The notes below the pieces were generated by a model, which was given only the letters and a program-made list of their open reading frames with translations, searched no databases and was not told the origin of the DNA. From NCBI GenBank assembly GCA_027625915.1, contig JANTQA010000063.1, forward strand, positions 6,219,501 through 6,283,500: a stretch of DNA of 64,000 bases, given 5' to 3'. This DNA is from Anaeramoeba flamelloides. Lineage: Eukaryota > Metamonada > Anaeramoebidae. Below, piece after piece: positions 18,726 to 63,113 of the stretch. A program made the translations under genes and the position numbers. The first letter of the stretch is position 1. Every line of letters begins with the position of its first letter.

Positions 18726-20125
18726 ACTATGATCAAAATAATGTGTACCCATAACAATAATTATCAAACTATGATTTTTAAGACATCATTCAATTCGAAG
18801 CCATGTAGAACTTTTTTGTCACAGATTATAAAGAGTTTTTAAAAAGTTAAACAAACATTCTTTTAATAAGGAGAGACTCAACTCGATATTGACAATTTTT
18901 AAAAACTAATATTCTTCGTTGTAACCATAACTCAGAAGGGAAATTCTTTGACAGTACTGTTTGGCATATACTTGGATCTAAATATCACAAGTAATCGCAA
19001 TTGTTACGGAACTGAAAAGTTTTATGACATTAGACGATATGCTTGAATAAAGAATTCACTTTCTAGAATTTTTTCCCACACAACAAGAATAGCACAATCC
19101 ATCCAAATACTTTCAAGACTTTTTCGACCTTTCAGACTGACAGTCTGCAAGATTTAATTATCTGATATCCTTTCATATTTTTTCAAATTTCAAATACTTG
19201 ATACAAACTTTTGTAAGCCAAAAAAAGGGTAAAAAAAAATAATATACTCAAAGATTACATTTTGAATTTAATTGAAATTTTTGAAAAGTTATCTGAAAGA
19301 AAAATATTTGTTTACTTTCAATAACTTGAAACTCTTTTTAAAGAAACCTAAAAGTGGAAAGTTATTTAAATTAAATGTTTTTAAAAGTTTGACTTGTAAA
19401 AAACTTTCACATTGAAAGTTATTGAATTCTGAACTTGTAATTCCTTTCAAAATTTGGAACAATTTCAAAAAAATAAAGTGTTTTGAAGTAAAAAAAGTGA
19501 CTACAATTTTAGTGCTATTCTTGTCGTGCAACAATCCCATTTTCTCTGTAAATTCGAAATAAAAAACAAGACAATTGTCTTTTTTTCAATGAGTCTGTTT
19601 TTGTCAAGAAAATCCGTGCTAAAGTAAAAAGAATTCGGAATTCCTTTGAGAACCTAACTATAAAAGTTGTCAAGAATAAAGTCTCAGTCGTGTGGTTGTT
19701 AATGTTGTTGTCAAATTAAGTAAAAAAAATTAAATTCTCAAGTGAAAGATTTAACGAATTCTTTGTTGAAAAACCCTAAAAGATCTTTACAACCCAAATA
19801 GATATGAAAATTTAGTTTCTTTAGGAAAGCCTCTTAGGTATTTTTTTGAATAAAATGGTGCTTTTGGTTTTTTAGTTGTCTGTTTGTGAAACGAAAATAT
19901 TTTTTAGAATTCAAAATCTCTGAAATTGGGTTTGACAATAATATTTAGGAACTTAAAAAATATAACCAACCAACTCTTTGGTGTTTAGGTCACTTAAAAT
20001 AAATATTCGATTTTTTTTTTTTCAGTATAAAAGGAAAAGTGAAAAGATAAAAATCATTTTTTTTCAAATTACTTTTCCAATTTTTTCCATCAAAATTATT
20101 TTTCAAAACTTTTTTATATTTTTTA
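18726..20125. other. Intergenic DNA upstream of RAD1
   Basis: At about 18925-19160 one plus frame is protein-like (TQKGNSLTVLFGIYLDLNIT, then YGTEKFYDIRRYA) with few stops, and may be a decayed exon. The last 150 bases before 20126 are T-rich and presumably contain the RAD1 promoter and leader. No motif can be named. Confidence 0.3.
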
Positions 20126-22337
20126 ATGGAGACTTTATCACAACAAGGACTTACAGAAGAAATTCCTATTGAAATTTTGGAAAAAGAAGAAGTTCGAACA
20201 TTGATACAATCTCAACAATCCCAAGAACTCGAAAAAGAACTCGAACAAGAACAAAACAACCGCCAAGAATATGAGCAATATGAAAACGACGAAGATGAAG
20301 AAGAAGACGAAGAGGATGAATACGAACTTGAATTAAAGCCTGTTTTAGAGGCAAGGGTTACTGACGTGTCACTGTTAGAAAACAATTTAGCACCTCTTTG
20401 CCTGAAAAAGGATCAAATGACAAAAGTACTTATTTCATCCAATGGCTTATATTTCAATGTTGAAGGAGACAGCAAAAACATCCAAACAACTACTTTCATT
20501 GACGCATCTCTTTTTGAAAGGTATGAATATAATTTAACCCAAGAACAAAACGAGAATGAGATCGAAATCGAAGAGTACAAAGAAAAAGAAAAAGAAAAAG
20601 AAAAAGAACAAGAACAAGAAGTTGAAACAGAGCTGGAAGAACAAACGAATAAAGAAGATGTTGAAAGGGTTACAATGCTAAGGATTAACTTGTCTGTTTT
20701 ACTCGATTGCCTGGGCATTTTTAAAGCGAAAAAAAAAAATTACCATTTGAACGAAACTGTCGCGCAATTAATTTACCCAAACCAAACAGGAGCTTTTGAA
20801 ATCGATCTTGAGGACGGAGGAGTTGTAACTTGGTGTAGCCTTGCAGTCAACAGCATTGACGATAACTATGTTCAGCCACAAGACGAAATGAAATTTGATG
20901 CATCATCAGTGACCAATACCATTGTGATGGATTCAATGGGGCTAAAAGTAGCATTGGGTGAATTGGATTGGGCGTGTAGAACAATTGGTGTGTTTATGTT
21001 TCAGCAACCATCGATGTTGTCTATGCAAACAATTGGACAGAACGGTATCTGCAGGGTAAGATTCCTACATTTTCATAGTTTTTTTGTTTGGCTTTTAAAA
21101 ACAGAATTCAACTTTATATTTTTTTTTTTTTTGTAAGGTGGTAAATCACAACAGCAAATATTTTTCATACTCAAGTGGTGAGTTAATCTCGAAAAACGGT
21201 ATTGTAAAAGTTGACTTCTTTTTGTTGAAAAAAACTCAAAATAAATACAGATAGCATCACTTTTAGGCACAAACTTTGAACGAAATTTAAGGCACAAAAA
21301 AATTCCAAATTAAGGCACAAATTTTGGGAATTATTTTTTGGTGTGTTTATGTTTCTAGAATTTGAATTTTGTGTGCTTTAATTTGGAATTTTTTGTTTGC
21401 CTTAAGATTTCTATGAAAGTTTCTTCCTTAAATGTGGAGCCGAGTGTAATAATTTAAAATAAAAATTTGGTGGAATTAATAGCGAAATTGGAATGTTAAA
21501 TGTGAAAAAAATTTAACTTGATCTTCATTTTCCGATTATTCTTTTACAAATAGAGTTTTCAAAGAAACAAATTCTAATTTGTGATCGAGATTTATTTCTT
21601 TGCTATTTTTTTTTTTGATGATATATATCTCGAGAAAATGAAACATCCAAAATGAAAAAAATATTTCAGAATTGTAACAAAGTAATTGAATCAAATTTTC
21701 ACTCATTTAAATACTCAAACATAAGTAGACTTTTCCAAGAAATAGAATATAAATTTGGTGATCTAGAATTTTAATTTAAATTTTACATTTGGATTAATTT
21801 AAGTTGAAATTTAAAATAATATTCATGATCAGCAAAAAAAAAAATAACATTAACCAAAAGATTTTTATTTTATATTTTTGTTTTTATATCTTGAAAATTG
21901 AATTTGCTTATTCTAACAATTCTTTTATTATTTTATTTTATTTTTAGATTGATTGTCCTTCAGACTCTGAGGCCGTTGAAAGATTAGACTCATCACAAGA
22001 CCAAAGCTGTTCATATTTATCTTCCCTTCTGAGAAGTTGTGTAAAGGCCTTACAATATTCAACAAAAGTCTCAATCCGAATGAACATGGAAGGAATGCTA
22101 TCTGTCCAATTGATGATTAAAAATCGTCAAAATATTCAAACATTTGTTGAATTTTTAATAAACCCTGAAGAAGAGGGCGAAGATGAAGAAGATGACGAAG
22201 AAGAAGAAAATTATGTTAAAAATAGACAAGAAGATGAACAATTCATAATAGGGGAAGAAATTAATGAAAAAAATCCTCTCCAGGATGAAGAACATGAAGA
22301 GTTACGGCTAGAATCACATAAATTGAATCAAAATTAA
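20126..22337 (+). CDS. RAD1: DNA damage checkpoint clamp subunit Rad1 (9-1-1 complex)
   Basis: Rad1 forms the PCNA-like 9-1-1 ring with Rad9 and Hus1, which is loaded at damaged DNA to activate the ATR checkpoint. Exon 1 is 20126-21055 and exon 2 is 21948-22337, joined in phase 0 through an 892-nt GT-AG intron (439 aa; animal Rad1 is about 280). Diagnostic segments are GLYFNVEGDSKNIQTTTFID then ASLFERYEY; RINLSVLLDCLGIF (Rad1 has RINLTVLLDCLSIF); FEIDLEDGGVVTWC; and, across the splice, IDCPSDSEAVERL. After it comes KALQYSTKVSIRMNMEGMLS, then LMIKNRQNIQTFVEF. The extra length is an acidic N-terminus (about residues 54-70), a Lys/Glu insertion at about 137-182, and an acidic tail. The intron holds MITE A4 and an R11 repeat. 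The neighbours are unrelated. Confidence 0.93.
21248..21446. mobile_element. MITE family A, copy A4, in the RAD1 intron
   Basis: A 199-bp degraded copy with TA flanks. The arms still pair (AAATTTAAGGCACAAA against its inverse). It is more diverged than A1-A3, so the insertion is probably older. Confidence 0.65.
21455..21745 (+). repeat. Dispersed repeat R11, copy 1 (RAD1 intron)
   Basis: This shares a diffuse but co-linear pattern with 27115-27435 and 55560-55870: a CTTGAT..TTCATTTTCC block, then TTTGTGATCGAGATTTATT, then a TTTCACTCATTTAAAT-like block. It is an old repeat of unknown type. Confidence 0.4.
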
Positions 22338-44911: not shown

Positions 44912-47900
44912 ATGGGACAAACTTTGAGCACGTTTCCCAACATACCAAAACTCAGCAAAAAAAAACTCACTTCTCGAATCAAAAGATTGGATATTAGCAG
45001 TGAAGGTGTGTTACATATCCTTCCTTCTACAGCGATTATCCAAGCCAACAAAAAGTCTGTCGAGGTCTTAGGCCGAACCAGAACTTTAATTATTAACAAG
45101 TCGATCAAAAACATTCTACCTCAACAACAACCACACTTGAGTCTTTCCACAGATGACTTCTTGGTGGAAATGGGGAAAAAAATTCACAAAATCAAGCACT
45201 CTTTTCTTGATCTGGTTTTTGCTTTTCAAAAACTCGAGGGGAACACAGACAATAACAGAAATAATTGCCTTACTGAAATCCTTCCTGTCGAAAAGGATCA
45301 TAAAAATGCAAATGAAAATAAAAATAAAAATGAAAATGAAAATCAAAAAGAGAAAGATCAAAAAAAACAAAAAGAAAAAAAAAAAAAAAACAAAACAAAA
45401 AGAAAAATCAAAAGAAAAAGAAAAAGAAGCAAAAAAATTCAATATAAAAAAAGTCACAGTAAAAAAACTCAAAACCAAGGGGAAGAAAGAAAAAAAAAAA
45501 AAAAAAAACAAAAAACCCAAAAACAGGATCAAAAAAGACACATTAATATGGGTGAACGCTGTGGTCATACCCTTTTTAGTAAACCGCAAACTCTATTATG
45601 AAGTTTGGTTTCGGCCAACAAACCGACCAAAGAGGCTAATCAAAAAAAATGCAACTATTCAGCACCTTACGGAAAGTTGTTATAACTTACAAAAACAAAT
45701 AAAAAAATTTCAAAAACACAGACCACGATCCCCTTTAAATAATGATTTGGACAACACCCGAACGACTCTAACAGGTTGTGTTCAAAACAATAATTTGCTA
45801 ACCTCCCAAATCGATCAAATTAATTTGGAAATTAAAGAGCTTAAGAATTTAATTTCCAAAAGATCAGCCTCGTTTATCAACGAACACAATGAAACAATGG
45901 AGAACAAAAAGAGTAATAAAAATGGAAACGGCAATAAGAAAAATAACCACAAAAGAGTGAAACAAAAACAAAAACAAAAAGAAAAAGAAAAAGAAATTGA
46001 AAAAGAAAAAGAAAATTATAGCTTCAAAACAGAGTTAGAAACATACCTGTATCGATTGAACTTGAAAAATAAAAAATTGCAGTTTGAATTAAAAAAAAGA
46101 CAAGGCACAACTTTGTCAAGTCAAATAATGTATCGCGTGAATGAATTGAAACTCAAGTCAAACAAATTCAAGGGTGTAACGAAGAATTTAACAAACCAAA
46201 AAAAATTTATTGACACCGAAATCATCCAAAAAAAGTTACAAATGGAATACATCATCCAAAATAGAAACGAACGTTTTTGTAAAAGTGAAGAGTTCCAAAT
46301 CCTAAATCAAGAAAAAAAAACTATAAATCAATCTTTGGAAGAAACCCAAAAAAGAATCAATATTTATTTGAATTACTTAAAATCAACAAGAAATGAAAAT
46401 CAACAACAAAGTGTCCGAATGACTTTGTCGAATCAAATAAAAAAAATTATTCATAAAAACAACCAACTCATGCTCGAAATCAACAAGTTGAAATCCCATT
46501 ATCAAGATTTGCAAGACTCAACAGAATCAGATTCTCTTAATTTATCTTCAGTAAGATTATTTCTTTTATTTCTATTTTTGTATAATTGTAAACCCTTTTC
46601 AGGTCTAGCTGCCATTTCGAAAATTACTACCACTGTTAGATTAAAATTTCCATTTTTTACTAAAGTTATCCTCAATAACCATTTCATCTTGAAAGAACAA
46701 AATTTTTTTTTAAAAAAGAAAGTTTCTTGTACAATTAAGATTTTAACTTTTTGGTTTTTTCGTTTTGTTCAGAAAGCACAATAACAAAATTTGTTTAATG
46801 TCTGGACCTAACCCTAGATTTGTCTATAATTAAAGTTTGTTGCAATTTAGGTGTAAATTATATTAGTTCTACATGTTTCAAATGGTTTCTGTGACTCGAA
46901 AAAATCTGTTAAAATTATTATTAAATAATAACCTATTGCATTTTTTACGATTGGATCACAATTATAAATTTATGATTTTCGAAAATTGTTATTTTGAACA
47001 AAGTCGTAATTACATTTTCTCAAATCCTAAAAATAGAAACTCAAAATATTATTATTAAAGTATTTAATAATTCATTCTTTTGAACTTTTAAAAAGTAACT
47101 ATTTTTTCAATTTTTTAATTTCAAAGATTAATTCATTAATTATCAACATAAAAACCTAAAATATTGATTATTTTTTGGTTTCCTTTTTTATGAAACTTGC
47201 TCTATTCTCAATATATTCCCAATATGTGAAAATAATTTATCAAAAAGAATCTATTGATTAATTCTAAGAATTCATTATTTCTTTTTTTAAAAAAATCAAA
47301 TTTTTTTGTTAATAATTTACATTTCAATACAAATTTAATAAAGATATTGCTTCAACTTTGAAGCTCTGAAGGTTGATGGTAAAACCTTTAAATTTTTCTC
47401 GAAGTGAAATGAAAATTTTTCTCTGAAATTCCTCGAGTTTTTATGAATACAAGGATCATTTCTAATTGATGAGATCAACTTTTGAACTATTTTACTAAAT
47501 TAATCGAGGTGAATGGATATTAATTTGTAAGAAATTTGTGACTGATTTATTGATAAATCTATCAATTCTTTCAAAATCATTTTGTTTCAAGTCAAATATT
47601 TCAAGACCAAAAATGTAATAATTTATTGTTCAATAAGATTTATAATAGAATTTTTAGAGACAATTGAACCATGGTGCACTAATGTGATTTACATTCAATG
47701 GCAACATATTTTTATTTTAGACTTCTTCACGGAAGACGCTAATTCCTTAAAGATCGAAGATTTTTTTTATCTAGAAAAATATAAAATAGGACTAAACCCC
47801 AATTCAAAATTTTTAAGACACCAAAATTCAATACTTGTAAAAAAAATTTTATTTAATCAAAATCGAGAAGAAATATCAAAAATGAACCATTCACAAATTG

Positions 47901-49797
47901 GAATGTTAACAATGGTTTATAAATTATAATACCCACAAAACAAAAAATAAATAATTATCAAAACAAATAAATCAAGATTTGTGTTAACAATTTTGGAGAT
48001 AAGCCCAACAAAAAAATGTATTTTGATAAATTTTTAAGGGTTAGATAAAACCTCATGTAATCTGTTAAAGAGAGAATTTTGAATTTACTAAATTTGAGAC
48101 TTCTAATTCAAAGAGTATCTAAAATAGATACAGTCATCCGAAGTATTTGAATCTTAATTTAGTTTTCTAAAAAAAAAAAAAAAAAAAAAAGAAAAGAAAG
48201 AATAAAAAATAAAGAAGTGGGGAAAAAATGATGGAAAGAAAAGAATGAAGAGTGAAAAAATAAAGAGGTTTAAAATAATTGTTAGAGAGACCTGAAATTT
48301 TCTGGTTTAAGTGAATTTGCTGATAGTTTTTATTTTGTCTTGAGCTCGTTTTTCCTAATTGCGTGTTGAGTCATGTTGTTCAGAAAATATTCTATTGTAA
48401 CGTCATGGATTTCTTTTATGTTCATTTTCCTCAATAATTCATCTGTGTCTTTTTTGACTATTATGTTAAAGTCAAAAATTTTGATTTTTTTGATTTGTTT
48501 TTTCCAGTGTTTTCTGGTTCTCTCATATTTTTCACAGTCCCAAATAAAGTGGTCTATGTCATCAACTTTTTTGTAACAGCACGGACATAATTTGGAATTT
48601 ACTCCCTTTTCCCCATCTATATGTGTATCTATTCAATCCATTACAAAAGGATTTGAGTTTGAATAATGTAGTTGATGATTTCCAGTTTAAGTAGGGCTGT
48701 TTTTCTTTGAATTTTTCTGGGAACTGGCTCATCTTTAGGTATTTTTTTTTTAGTTTCCAGTTCTCGTACCCTTTGTATGAATTGACTTTGTCTTGTATTG
48801 ATTTTATATAGGCTTGATGAAATTTTTTCTTTATTTCAATTTTCCCCATGTCTTCTCAATCAATACCTGCAATTTCATCCAGTGTTAGGTCTTCAGCAAA
48901 AAAATGTATTGGTAAATTTGTTAAAGTTCTATACAATTATTGATCGATCAATGGTTTAGATACCCATTAACATAATTTTATTTGGGTTCTTCACTTTAAA
49001 AGAGCACAACTTTATACATAATATCAACTGTTGGAAAAAATTGTTTGATCAAACGAAACAAAGTTACGTAATTCAAAAAATAATCCAAACAATAAAAAAC
49101 TAAAAGAAGATGAAAAAATGATTTTCATATTGTATAAAAATCAAATTTATTTTTAATTTGAATGAAATTGTATTATTGTGATTCTTTTAACTGTTTTAAC
49201 TGTGTTGAAAAATTTTTGGATTTTAATTTAGAATTGGAATTTGAATTTAACCAACACTTAGTAGCATAAAGGACGATACCATCCCCGTAAAATTAAATAT
49301 TACTCAAATATATACTTATAATATACCCCATAAAATTATTGCTTTGTGATTAATATTGATTGGAAATTTTTCAAAAAATTTACATAAAAAAATAAATAAA
49401 ATGATTAAAACTGTTACATAATAAAAGCAAAATATTTTTTTTCTACAAAAAAATGAAAAAAGCGTTTTTAAAAAAACATGAAAAATTCAGAAATCATTTT
49501 TGCTCTTGTGAAAAACTGAAAGATCCCCCCCCAAAAAAAAAACAAAAAAAAAAATTAGTTTTAATTAATAGCAACCATCTTTATTTTTTAAACAACAAAA
49601 AAAAAAGGAATGTTTAAAAAATTATCAAAACTAATCAATAAAAAAAAAAAAAATTAGAAAATCAAAATTATTTAATTTGGAGATCTACGAAATGGATCAA
49701 ATTTTAAATTTATTACAACTTTTTGAACAACTGTTTTATAAAGAAAAATAAAATAAATCCAAAAACCTTTTTAAAAAACAATCATTATTTCTTTCTA

Positions 49798-49839
<42 letters not shown>

Positions 49840-52800
49840 TTTTGTCACCCATAATAACATTATAACCTATTACTAATCATATAAAAAATTATTATCTAAT
49901 TAGGATGAAGATGATCAGGTCACAGACAAATCAAAATTATTACATCCAATTATGGAGATAGTAAAAATGAGTCCAAAATCTCAAGATGATTTTTTGTTGA
50001 GAAAAAAATTATCAGGAATTAACAATATGAATCAAAGGAGACAAAATCTATTAAAAATCCAAGGAAAAGCACAATCCCCATTATCTAATGATTTTATTGT
50101 CCGTTCTCAATCTTTAAGGTAAATAATAAAAATCAAACAATTCTTTTTCTTTATTAATTATTTATTTTATATTTTTCAAAGTTAAAGATCTAAACAATAA
50201 CAATACCAAAACAATTTGTAAAAAAAAAAAAAAAATATTTTGATAAAAATTTAGACTTTTAAGAACATAATTTGGAAATGAGAAAATTATCTGCAAAAAT
50301 CAATTCTAAAAAAAAAAAATAATTTCATTTTTCGACTAATCTTTTAAATAGAGAAACAATATGAATTAGTGTTCAAAACTTTATCAAAAAAAAGAAAAAA
50401 AAAAAAATACTCTTTTTTATTGTTTATTACGAAAGGCGAATTCAACACAATTACCCCCGGTTTACCGTTAGGTTTTTTTTACTTTAAGAAATAAATAGAA
50501 AATTGAAGAAATTTTCGTTTTATTTTTTAAAGTAAAAAAAAAAGCCGTTAGCTTTTTTTTAATTTCAAAGAAATGCACTCTACGGCACTTTCTGAAACCC
50601 GAAATTTATTTAGAGCTTTTTTACCCTAGATCTAATGTAGGTAAGATTATAATCATCAGATAGCTATTCTTTAAAAAATGAAAAAAAATTATTTTTTTTT
50701 AAGCAAGTAAGCACATTCAACCATTTTGAAAAATTTTAATTGTGTAGAAACCGTACTGAAAAATATTTTTTGAGTACCACCAGATATTGGAACTTTGAAA
50801 CCAAAACATCATTCGCTGTTCTCTTTGTGAAAAGAAAACGAACGAACCCAAAGTAATTCAGAGTTGAATCTTTCACTTTTTCAATTTTTTGAACATTTTT
50901 TTTGATTACATTTTTGGATTTATTAAATTTGGTTTTGGATCTAGAAATGTGTTTATACGAACGAGCGAAATTAATCCAAGAGTAAATCCAAAAAAATAGA
51001 CCTGAAAGGTGTGTATTTGAAACAAAACCTTTCTTTTTTAAAACTCAAATACAAAAGATCACCTTTCCAAATAAATTTGTTGAAATCAAAAATGAAAAAA
51101 AAAAAAAAATCGATCAAAGACTATTTTCGAAGATTTGTTTTATTTTTCATCTTAATTTGTATGAACCCAAACAATTATAACTTTGGATTTCTCGCTTTAT
51201 TACTATTTATTATTATTGTACAAAACATTTTTTGACAAATTTGCTTTCAAAATTCTAATTTCAAATATTTCTTATCAAACAAAACCAAAATAAAGAATAC
51301 TATTTCAAAAATTAAAATAAAGGGGTTGAATACTCAAAATCAAAAAAACAGTTACAAAAGATTCAACCCAAAATTAAAAAAAAAAATTAGAAAAAATTTC
51401 AATCAGATTCAGAATTATTTTTCGTTCCCAATTTAATAAAAAATAAATAAATATAAAATCAAATGAATTCGTCCAATACATCTTTATTTTTGAGGAGGAA
51501 TTTAAAAAAACATCCTATTTTCTCAAACCAAAACTAAGAATTAGATGAATTCAATGAAAATATGATTTTTAAATTCATTTTGGAAATTCTTTAGAAATAA
51601 AAAGTAATTTGTTTCTCAAAGATTTTTCAAATATAAGTATTTCTATAAAGAACTAAAAATAAAACCAAATTAAGAATAAGTAATTGTGTTAAATGTTATA
51701 GATAAGATCTAGAAATAAATGATTTGTATTTATTTTTTCAAGCTCAATTTTTCCATTTTTATAGATTTCCATTTTTTTAGTTGGTATGAAAATATATTCT
51801 ACTCGGATATAGTCCACTCTTGTATTTATTAAAAAATCAATGTATTTTATTAAAGAAATGATTTGAAGAATTCAGTTTCACATAAATTGTGGCACTTAAA
51901 ATTTGAAAAATGCACTTACTTACTTCAACAAAAACAAGAAAAAGAGAAAGAAAAGCAACAAACAAAAGAGAATAAAAAATAACGAAAAAAAATAAAAAAA
52001 AGCAAAAATGTAATTAAAAATTTTTTTTTGCACCAGAGGTTTGGAACAGGTTGTAGGTTGTTTCCTTTTGATGTAGAAAATTATTTGTTCGCCACCATAA
52101 AACCACTTGTTTGTGTAATACCGTATTTGACAGAAGTTGATCCCACTACAAGGTATTATTACTGTAACTGTTAGATGTTACTACAAGTCAATTGTGCATA
52201 AGAAAAAAATGGATATTGCCACAGCCATTTCTCTTCTTCAATACTTTGCGCACCAAATTAGAACCACACTGTCAATTAATTTTCTTACTCTCTACTTTTT
52301 AATTAAAAATAAAATACAAAAACTAAAAGGAAAAAAAATTCTTTTTAAGAGAAAAAAAAGAAAAATCAAAAACATTAAATGGAAAAATGATTCAAATTAA
52401 TTCCTTCGAAACTTTATTAGAAGAAACTTAATTATTAATTTCATATAATAATATCTTATAATAATAAAAATAAAAATGTTTTTTTCTTACATTAACTTCA
52501 TGTTCAATTAAAAAAAAAAAATAAAAATGATTTTAAATATTCTAATTACTTGAATTATTTTCAATTCAAAATAATTTCTTCAAAAATATAAAGTATTTAT
52601 TCGATGAAAATTTAATAAATCTATCTCATATTTATAGAGAAAAAAACAAAATTAAATGCAAAATTTCTTTTTTTTTAATAACATCTAAATTTTTATTTCA
52701 AAACATTTATTATTTCTATTTCTAAAAAATTTATAGCCACCTACGGGAAAATAACAACAATATTGATTTACCAAATTTTACCCGCAAAAAGAAAAAATCA

Positions 52801-54421
52801 CTACTTTTCAAAGACATTTTAAAAGAAAACACATTTGAAGAATTATTTAATTATCCACTTGCAATTCAATATTATAAGGAATATCTTTCTGAAAGAATGA
52901 TAATTGAACCATTTTTATTTTATTGTGATGTGCAAGATTTCAAAAAGTGTTTTAACCAAGAAGTATAATTTAATTTGATTTATTTAATTTTTGTACTATT
53001 TTTTTTTCAATATAACACCCACATTCTAAATTAAATTTTCATTTATTTACCAATCATTTTTAAAAACATAATAATAATAAAATATATAAAAGGATGCTGA
53101 TGAACTAACAGCATATTTTTTAGACAATTATATTTATAAAATGTCAACATTTTCACTTGACATTAAAGAAGAAACAAGAAAGAATATTATTAAAAAATGG
53201 GCTGAAGATGATTTTAGTGTTGATATCTTTGAAGAAATTGAAAAAAAATATTATCATGTACTTTCAAATCAATATTTTAAAGAATTTCAAAAAAGTTATT
53301 TGTATTCTGAACTTGAAAAATGCACTATCAGTGAAAATTATAGATATACAAATAATAATTACTTTGATGCAGAATTATGCTCTCAAAACATTCAAAGTGA
53401 AACCTTAAATTCAATTATTAAATATAATAAAAATGAACAAAACCAACAAAATGAACAAAATGAACAAAATGAACAAAATGAACCAAATCAACCAAACGAA
53501 CCAAACGGACCAAACGAACAAAATGAACAAAATGAGCAAAAAGATCAAAAAGAACAAAATGAACAAAAAGAACAAAATGAACAAAACAAACAAAATGAAC
53601 AAAACCAAAAAAATCAACAACTACAGCAACTTCAAATCAAAGAAAAAAAAGCGAGCAAAATTGATAAAAATTTAATTTCTCAATTACTTTTAATGTTGAA
53701 TCATAATTATACAAATAATTATGGCAGTATAAATTGTGAAAAACTAACTTTATCACTTCCTTATAAAAAATTTTTAGTTAATTGTTCAGAATTGCAAAAT
53801 ATTGATTTACAAAAATTATCCCAACAGAGCATTTCAACAAAGAAGAGTTTTTTTATCAATTTATATAACATATTATTGGTGCATTCTTTGTTGAATAATG
53901 AAATTCCAAAAAACTACAATTCCTATAAACAGTTCTTAAATTATAGTAAATATAATCTAGGTGGCTCAATAATTAGTTTATCTGATATCAAATTTGGGAT
54001 TTTCAAATTGGGCTCATTAAAAAAAAATAAAAAATATTTATTGCCCAAAGAATTGAAAAAACTGGAATTTAATACACCAGATCCTAGAATACATTTTTCT
54101 TTAATTTCGCCGACCGAGCAATCTCCAATTCTAGATATCTTCGATAGCGATACTTTATATGATAAATTAAATCAAACCACAGAAAAATATATCTCTAAAA
54201 ATGTTTTGATCGATAGCGAAAAAGAAATCATTTCATTACCACCAATTTTTACCAAATACTATTCTGATTTTGGGTTAAATGTTTCCCAATCCATTTTTTG
54301 GATTCAGAATTATATAAAATCAAATAATGTTATCAATATGATCAATTATTCAATACAGCCAATGCAACTAAAAATAACCCAAGAAATTAAATTTATTTCA
54401 GATGATGAATTAACAAAATAA
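44912..54421 (+). CDS. PAS - coiled coil - RGS - DUF547 signalling protein
   Basis: Exons: 44912-46550, 49904-50118, 52737-52962, 53093-54421. Introns are 3353, 2618 and 130 nt; splice phases agree (about 1,135 aa). The N-terminus MGQTLST fits N-myristoylation. A PAS fold follows: VLHILPSTAIIQANKKSVEV to about residue 74, then, after a long Lys-rich insertion, the last strands WVNAVVIPFLVNRKLYYEVW near residue 220. Next come coiled coils (about 240-545). The RGS domain (52.78-53.32 kb) has NTFEELFNYPLAIQYYKEYL and IIEPFLFYCDVQDFKKCF, as expected for a G-alpha GTPase activator. After a Gln/Asn/Glu linker, DUF547 (53.69-54.37 kb) has KSFFINLYNILLVHSLL, LGGSIISLSDIKFGI, DPRIHFSLISP and YYSDFGL. 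Oddity: PAS halves are in different frames, with one extra base in the A-rich tract at about 45.37-45.5 kb. It probably acts at a membrane in G-protein signalling. Confidence 0.8.
47330..47935 (+). pseudogene. Degenerate coding repeat R9, copy 3 (in the RGS gene intron)
   Basis: A 116-codon stop-free stretch ends at 47929 (FLETIEPWCTNVIYIQWQHI, then ILDFFTEDANSLKIEDFFYL, then KMNHSQIGMLTMVYKL). It has no ATG at its 5' end and matches the peptides of R9 copies at 25075 and 33830. It is the best preserved copy. Family unknown. No evidence that it is an exon of the surrounding gene. Confidence 0.4.
48330..48897 (-). mobile_element. 5'-truncated LINE (non-LTR retrotransposon) 3' end
   Basis: On the minus strand the C-terminal part of a LINE ORF2-type protein is visible: KSIQDKVNSYKGYENWKLKK, then KSFCNGLNRYTYRWGK. 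In a neighbouring frame follows KLCPCCYKKVDDIDHFIWDC then EKYERTRKHWKKQI. The zinc knuckle C-x2-C-x8-H-x4-C and the following ExxR..W helix are typical of LINE C-termini. At least one frameshift (near 48605) and an early stop (near 48855) make it dead. Reverse transcriptase is absent, so it is 5' truncated. It abuts family B fragment B6 and lies in the first intron of the PAS-RGS gene. The frame ends in TAA at 48330. Confidence 0.65.
48895..49230 (+). mobile_element. Family B fragment B6 (right part only)
   Basis: Starts abruptly at AAATGTATTGGTAAATTTG, a sequence internal to family B, directly after the LINE. It runs to a family B right end (GGATTTTAATTTA). The left half is missing. It matches B5 more closely than B1-B4, so there are at least two subfamilies. 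Confidence 0.55.
49800..49838. repeat. (ATT)n microsatellite
   Basis: Thirteen ATT units about 65 bp before exon 2 of the PAS-RGS gene. Confidence 0.85.
50440..50630. repeat. Modular repeat R10, copy 3 (intronic)
   Basis: CCGTTAGGTTTTTTTTACTT and the inverted AAAAAAGCCGTTAGC blocks plus GCACTCTACGGCACTTTC match modules of copies 1 and 2. Confidence 0.45.
50706..51405 (+). repeat. Dispersed direct repeat R5, copy 2 (uninterrupted, intronic)
   Basis: Same orientation and order as the copy at 16668-18725 but without the TTAA element. Blocks at about 51125-51185 and 51285-51365 are nearly identical to the other copy. A 74-codon frame (51011-51235) is not kept open in copy 1. Confidence 0.6.
52030..52400 (+). 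pseudogene. Coding-like patch in an intron
   Basis: Two adjacent plus frames each carry protein-like sequence (FGTGCRLFPFDVENYLFATI near 52040; MDIATAISLLQYFAHQIRTT near 52209). The second is stop-free for 87 codons to 52400 but opens at TTG. No family recognised, and no fit to the splice phases of the surrounding gene. Confidence 0.25.
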
Positions 54422-61998: not shown

Positions 61999-62839
61999 CT
62001 ATTTTAATATTTTAACAATATCTTCATCCCAATACATACCAGAATATCTAGCTATCAAATCCCAAGTATATCCAAATAGATAGTGATTAACTTCTGATTC
62101 ATCAGTAATGTATCTAAAAATTTGTTTTTTATCCAAGTGTATTCCCTTTTCATCAAACTTCAATTTTGAAACAACTCTTTTCAAATGTGTAATAGCAATT
62201 TCTGTTGTATAATTTTTTTCAGGGAATTTTTTTTTTAATTCATTTTTAAAAAATCTAATGATAATTAAAGTATTTGAAACGAATTTATATAATCTGGGGT
62301 GGTGTTGATAATTTGATAATTGGATTTCATATGGAAACAAAGTATATAGCAATTTGATGTTTTTTAAAATATTGTGAGTCACCCCAGAATGGAGAATTTC
62401 ACATGTTATTACCAGAAGATCTGTATAAAAATTCAATTCATGTGTCATTTCTTTATAAGGGATATCAAATTTATTCACCAGCATTTTCTTAATTAATCTT
62501 TCCGGCCTCGTCAAGGTGGTGGGTGGCGGGTTTAATGTTTCAATATCTATCCATTCTGAATAAAGTGTTTCCCTTAGTTGGTAATCTCCTTGATCAAAAC
62601 TTATTTTTAAATTTTCTTGTAAATTTTTCTTTCTTCGAGATCTTTGTTTTTTTCTGCTTTTCTCAATTTTTTTTTTTTTTTTTTTATTAGCCTTTCGGAC
62701 CTTTTTATCTCTTTCATACATACTTGAAGTTGGATCAGTTTCATCATCATCGAGTTCAAATTTCCCTAATACTTGTAATTTTTTTGTAAGAAAATCAAAA
62801 ATAATTGCTATTTCTTCAGATGCATAAAATGAAATATCC
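61999..62839 (-). CDS. Dymeclin-family protein, 3'-terminal exon (partial gene)
   Basis: Dymeclin is a peripheral Golgi protein needed for Golgi organisation. This is the last exon on the minus strand: it follows a TTTTTATCAG acceptor, starts with one base of a split codon, and reads ISFYASEEIAIIFDFLTKKL (dymeclin: SPYAAQRIIKLFELLSKK). A basic insertion (YERDKKVRKANKKKKKK...) and a segment ELNFYTDLLVITCEILHSGV then THN follow (dymeclin: LEIINSCLTNSLHHN). Then come HHPRLYKFVSNTLIIIRFF and the ending YLFGYTWDLIARYSGMYWDE then DIVKIL, matching [20 protein letters not shown] then DIQLF. Stop TAG at 61999. The 5' exons should lie to the right; I could not join them with confidence. HID1 is a related alternative, but the WSLVY..GLYW ending favours dymeclin. 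Confidence 0.7.
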
Positions 62840-63113
62840 CTGATAAAAAGAAAAGAAGATAAGAATGAAAGAATATAAGAAGAGTTGAAAACAATTAAAA
62901 ATAAAAAAAGAAGAAATTATATTAATATTTAGTCATTTTTCGAGAATAAATTTCATGAAAATATTGAAAAATTATAAAATTTATTTTGTTAAAAAAATAA
63001 TTAGATTTTTTGAAATTTAATCGAACTTTTCATGGAAAAATAAATTGAAATTTTGATTTGAATTTGGAATTTCTTCAAATTAAAAGTTTTCCTTCAAACA
63101 AAAAAATTAAACC

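Follow-up and report, generated by a model that had tools for sequence, protein, structure and literature searches.

In a 64,000-nucleotide stretch of the Anaeramoeba flamelloides genome (hereafter, the window; contig JANTQA010000063.1, positions 6,219,501 to 6,283,500, from an assembly of 254 Mb in 76 contigs), we analyzed a plus-strand gene at 44912-54421 that combines a PAS-like domain, a long helical region, an RGS domain and DUF547. Judged by sequence, the gene belongs to a PAS-RGS-DUF547 family of at least nine genes, and the architecture is real. We favor reading its product, with a probability of about 0.5, as a peripheral membrane-bound, PAS-gated G-alpha-binding protein that would be without canonical GTPase-activating protein (GAP) activity. 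An earlier note on this DNA had proposed direct G-protein shut-off, which is doubtful because, of the seven RGS4 contact residues, E87 alone is kept and N88 is absent from all nine PAS-type genes.

The RGS profile (PF00615) matched the spliced exons 3 and 4 with 41.7 bits against a cut-off of 23.9, and exon 4 alone with 24.2 bits. An RGS fold was found in the structure prediction of a paralog, the NCBI protein P0001, which was modelled rather than the window's spliced protein. Seven residues, numbered after RGS4 in 1agr_E, were taken by us to be the G-alpha contacts (E87, N88, N128, L159, D163, S164 and R167). The importance of N88 and N128 in RGS4 is documented in the available text of PMC3688948 and PMC7572916, respectively. 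The window has E, P, D, V, Q, Y and E at the seven positions, retaining E87 alone (1/7), and with six of the seven replaced the idea of an ordinary G-alpha GTPase activator was not supported. Among the nine PAS-type genes, E87 was retained in 9, N128 in 3, L159 in 4 and D163 in 2, and N88, S164 and R167 in none. The 13 other RGS-DUF547 rows kept N88 in 10, N128 in 10, L159 in 1, D163 in 2, S164 in 8 and R167 in 0; N88 was replaced there by Pro (L041), Ser (L009) and Leu (L019). In these alignments the loss of N88 goes with the PAS group, yet is not confined to it. The PAS-type counts retain the near-copies L033 (the locus of P0001)/L034, L035/L036 and L037/L038, and those for the other rows retain the near-copies L046/L051; the counts leave out near-duplicates (L010, L014, L015, L018, L020) and loci with a half-read RGS (L002, L003, L005, L007, L008, L045, L047-L050, L052).

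The main alternative, which we regard as rather unlikely, is a PAS-gated GAP of the canonical kind, as in the earlier note, which would shut off G-alpha directly and have a diverged interface. Such a protein would fit the RGS profile and fold, the E87 retained in 9/9 genes, the many G-alpha matches (the 8 best loci have the catalytic motif intact), and the canonical residues of another A. flamelloides RGS protein, P0004, in which N88, N128, L159, D163 and R167 are all retained; it fits poorly with the replacement in the PAS-type genes of N88, S164 and R167 (9/9 each) and of D163 (7/9). At least 124 G-alpha matches were listed genome-wide (121 scored of 890 candidates), with DVGGQR present in 8/8 of the best loci and the switch-I T-x-G motif readable in 7/8. 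There were also at least 150 matches each for RGS (best 150 of 472 candidates) and DUF547 (best 150 of 191), all of these being counts of exon matches, including copies with stops, rather than of genes. To our knowledge, so many G-alpha matches are unusual for a single-celled eukaryote. Almost 400 Rabs are described in the available text of the genome paper (PMC11550330).

A genome search with the first 129 residues matched nine PAS exons, the window among them, and RGS and DUF547 followed downstream on the same strand in 9/9. DUF547 lay within 12 kb in seven among the matches listed, and was found in the fetched neighbouring stretches for the other two (C46 and C51). With a chance expectation of about 0.0035 per PAS exon, the linkage is far beyond chance, the nine including three near-copy pairs. 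In a DUF547 tree of 29 rows, ten PAS-type rows were set apart from all the others by a branch supported at 98/99. A single gain of the PAS-type build is likely, though not proven because the tree was rooted by midpoint. The ten rows include P0002, annotated as a single protein with PAS, a helical region and DUF547. P0002 has no RGS match despite its position inside the group, possibly through secondary loss or an exon skipped in annotation.

As the earlier note had it, the gene comprises four exons. They lie at 44912-46550, 49904-50118, 52737-52962 and 53093-54421 and are joined in phase across GT-AG introns of phases 0, 2 and 0. Exon 1 carries the N-terminus, the PAS halves, a Lys-rich insert and the helical region, and ends at the phase 0 donor GTAAGA; exon 2 encodes a linker (DEDDQVTDKSKLLHPIM...SQDDFLL); exon 3 continues with a linker and the start of RGS (from about 52834); and exon 4 holds the RGS remainder (to about 53314), an Asn/Gln-rich linker, DUF547 and the stop. 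The introns measure 3353 (46551-49903), 2618 (50119-52736) and 130 bases (52963-53092), the last within RGS. P0001, whose four pieces match locus L033 letter for letter, spans the three homologous junctions, with introns of about 3449, 135 and 259 bases. A pair of adjacent genes, PAS-helical at 44.9-46.5 kb and RGS-DUF547 at 49.9-54.4 kb, might be suspected from the 3.35 kb of intron 1 and from the numerous RGS-DUF547 genes without a PAS match. This is very improbable and already contradicted by P0001 across the junction, by the annotation of P0002, where PAS and the helical region share a protein with DUF547, and by the 9/9 linkage; the single protein first proposed is supported.

The length of intron 2 (2618 versus 135 bases in L033) is at least partly due to an interspersed repeat, roughly 1.2 kb long, at about 50694-51925, in which the longest listed open frame has 102 codons. 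At least 39 other near-full-length copies with 80-87% identity were among the 47 rows listed genome-wide (40 scored of 7230 first-look candidates). Overlapping minus-strand open frames at 48330-48855 gave no Pfam match and carry a Cys/His motif, which we take to resemble the zinc-binding tail of long interspersed nuclear element (LINE) reverse transcriptases.

The coordinates of exon 1 were confirmed, but the exon is not one open frame. The first PAS half is in frame from 44912, the second half and the helical region in frame from 45141, and the switch sits in the Lys-rich insert, which bears A16 (45375) and A19 (45490) tracts. In the paralog L034 the frame is open through the equivalent stretch, and L033 has a similar break in poly-Lys. 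We propose that the break is likely a homopolymer error, because the genome paper, in its available text, describes Nanopore and Illumina reads for published A. flamelloides assemblies, which may not include the present one (PMC11550330). Alternatively, the window copy could be a pseudogene or a decaying copy, with intact function in the paralogs. The frame break, the repeat inserted in intron 2 and a protein search in which relatives were found but none identical to the window (the best at 70%) point that way; even so we consider decay improbable, as the remaining reading frames and splice sites look intact, the break falls within the A16/A19 stretch of a genome whose published assemblies were built on such reads, and the sister L033, similarly broken, still has P0001 as its annotated product.

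The protein begins with MGQTLS (44912-44929). N-myristoylation follows the rule of Gly-2 plus Ser/Thr at position 6; this start has Gly-2 and Ser-6, and two N-myristoyltransferase matches were found in the genome. Among the window and its relatives, MG begins 8/9 exon-1 starts, and S/T occupies position 6 in 4/9 (the window, L034, L037 and L038) and also in L033, in agreement with the myristoylation-type N-terminus suggested before. The PAS-like domain has an N-terminal half at 45005-45235 (PAS_9 profile, sub-threshold) and a C-terminal half at 45537-45638 (DTLIWVNAVVIPFL..., from the family alignment), separated by the Lys/Asn-rich insert at 45236-45536. The window scored 18.9-19.3 bits, below the Pfam cut-off of 27. 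With the insert removed, three of seven rows passed (L039 and L040 by PAS_9, P0002 by PF00989); the window, one of the seven, remained below, as did L034 (22.4 bits), and L035 and L037 gave no match. The family profile matched 5fq1 (E 0.013) and the CitA PAS domain 8bjp (E 0.014) in the PDB, and its stretch 158-196 reached only E 0.24 against the blue-light photoreceptor 2pr5. Of the split PAS domain of the earlier note, two PAS-like halves were recovered, with three relatives passing the cut-off and the window itself falling short of it. The coiled coils that had been described were recovered as a long helical region at 45639-46550, probably a coiled coil given its similarity to L033 and the helices predicted in P0001. 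It is part of a match of 48% identity to L033 over 398 residues, which reaches back across the second half of PAS into the last part of the insert, and the helices of P0001 lie in residues 2-256, with a predicted local distance difference test (pLDDT) score mostly of 40-67.

Several observations weigh against a membrane-bound protein without GAP activity. Myristoylation is weakened as a family trait, since position 6 is Q or V in 4/9 starts and one start is without MG, and PAS is weak by profile, its assignment here being PAS-like from sequence. The window copy carries a frame break. The G-alpha face is partly conserved, because E87 (9/9), L159 (4/9), N128 (3/9) and D163 (2/9) are retained in PAS-type genes, and the nine genes counted include the three near-copy pairs. 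Nor are the losses exclusive to PAS-type genes, since 3 of 13 non-PAS rows are without N88, and among the 13 D163 is rare and R167 missing. N88, D163 and R167 are retained in P0004, which has a PAS-like region and RGS but no DUF547, so a working GAP would be possible with this general layout. Moreover, mammalian RGS4 residues may not be predictive for a diverged amoebal pair.

DUF547 (PF04784) matched at 53834-54193 with 77.8-82.6 bits (cut-off 27; E 9e-22), so both RGS and DUF547 exceeded their cut-offs in the spliced protein, as had been expected. A structure model of 53648-54418 reached a pLDDT of 90.4, and the search against solved structures found no relative of it. Nine columns were invariant across 22 DUF547 rows, including a His and two Asn that share a helix of the model; two prokaryotic DUF547 proteins keep the Asn residues but not the His. 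The NCBI product name of P0001-P0003, "protein disulfide oxidoreductase", would give DUF547 such an activity, for which we see hardly any likelihood, and the name is unsupported. The cysteine pair of the archaeal P0006 was absent from 23/23 Anaeramoeba DUF547 rows, with none within two columns. The bacterial P0007 is likewise without the pair, so DUF547 domains do not always have one, and the cysteine test is weak.

RGS accompanies DUF547 in 35 of the 42 DUF547 loci read, and in this genome DUF547 is thus not the unusual partner it had seemed. The 42 loci are not a random sample and comprise best matches, long open frames, window relatives and, from a systematic sample planned to have 38 rows, 10 of these; L062 and L063, fetched afterwards, stand outside the count. 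Seven loci had no RGS in the stretch read (L001, L004, L006, L021, L042, L043 and L044), and for L006, L043 and L044 an RGS match lies 3-4 kb upstream, beyond that stretch. L021 (1401-3737) encodes a RasGAP-DUF547 fusion (RasGAP 72.6 bits, Pfam), and L042 is RasGAP-type by resemblance and tree position, with no Pfam support. RasGAP is, on these matches, a second GTPase-regulator partner of DUF547.

Under our favored reading, myristoylation at Gly-2, helped by the Lys-rich loop, would anchor the protein at the membrane, and the helical region would dimerize it as a coiled coil. PAS may sense a ligand or redox signal and relay it onward, and the helical region could carry it to the C-terminal half. 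RGS would bind its partner, G-alpha or some other protein, without the catalysis of an ordinary GAP, and DUF547 would serve as a non-redox binding or effector module, so that the protein might act as a signal-gated scaffold or as a competitor of catalytic RGS proteins. More tentatively, and with more doubt than belief, we can picture that A. flamelloides evolved a clade of pseudo-RGS proteins, PAS-gated and anchored at the membrane, that shield or hold active G-alpha rather than turning it off; they would belong to a G-alpha/RGS-DUF547 network that has expanded greatly, and DUF547 would be their output module.

Elsewhere in the window, a Rad1 checkpoint-clamp homolog (PF02144, 93.7 bits) was found at 20051-21136, and a possible Dymeclin-like protein (27.0 bits, under the cut-off of 28.6) at 61999-62916 on the minus strand.

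If correct, the favored reading would place the control of heterotrimeric G proteins in a free-living metamonad under the direct influence of an intracellular sensor, with the catalytic Asn of RGS lost in every PAS-type RGS-DUF547 gene examined. DUF547, an uncharacterised family, gains a testable context beside GTPase regulators (RGS and RasGAP), and a public-database product name is called into question. The closest RGS proteins, RGS8, RGS4 and RGS17, are of the R4/RZ type. Compared with these, the window replaces N88, N128, L159, D163, S164 and R167 of RGS4, and its RGS is intron-split and has a PAS-like, a helical and a DUF547 region attached. In GRK2 and Axin, the RGS-homology domains bind partners but have no GAP activity, and the window protein may by analogy share an RGS fold without ordinary GAP function; it differs in partners and architecture, with no kinase or beta-catenin module found in it. 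Within A. flamelloides, P0004 ('double hit isoform b') resembles the window in its MG start, long middle region, RGS (89.7 bits) and weak PAS match (PAS_4, 16.2 bits versus 23.1), and differs in having no DUF547 and in keeping five of the contacts that the window has lost. P0003, L009-L020 and L022 share the order of long N-terminal region, RGS and DUF547 (in one open frame in L009-L020 and L022), but have no PAS match and retain N88 and N128 each in 10/13 rows checked. The available text of PMC9122207 describes PTEN with DUF547 in E. histolytica, which is likewise a signalling regulator joined to DUF547 in an amoeba, although the partner there is a lipid phosphatase and not RGS.
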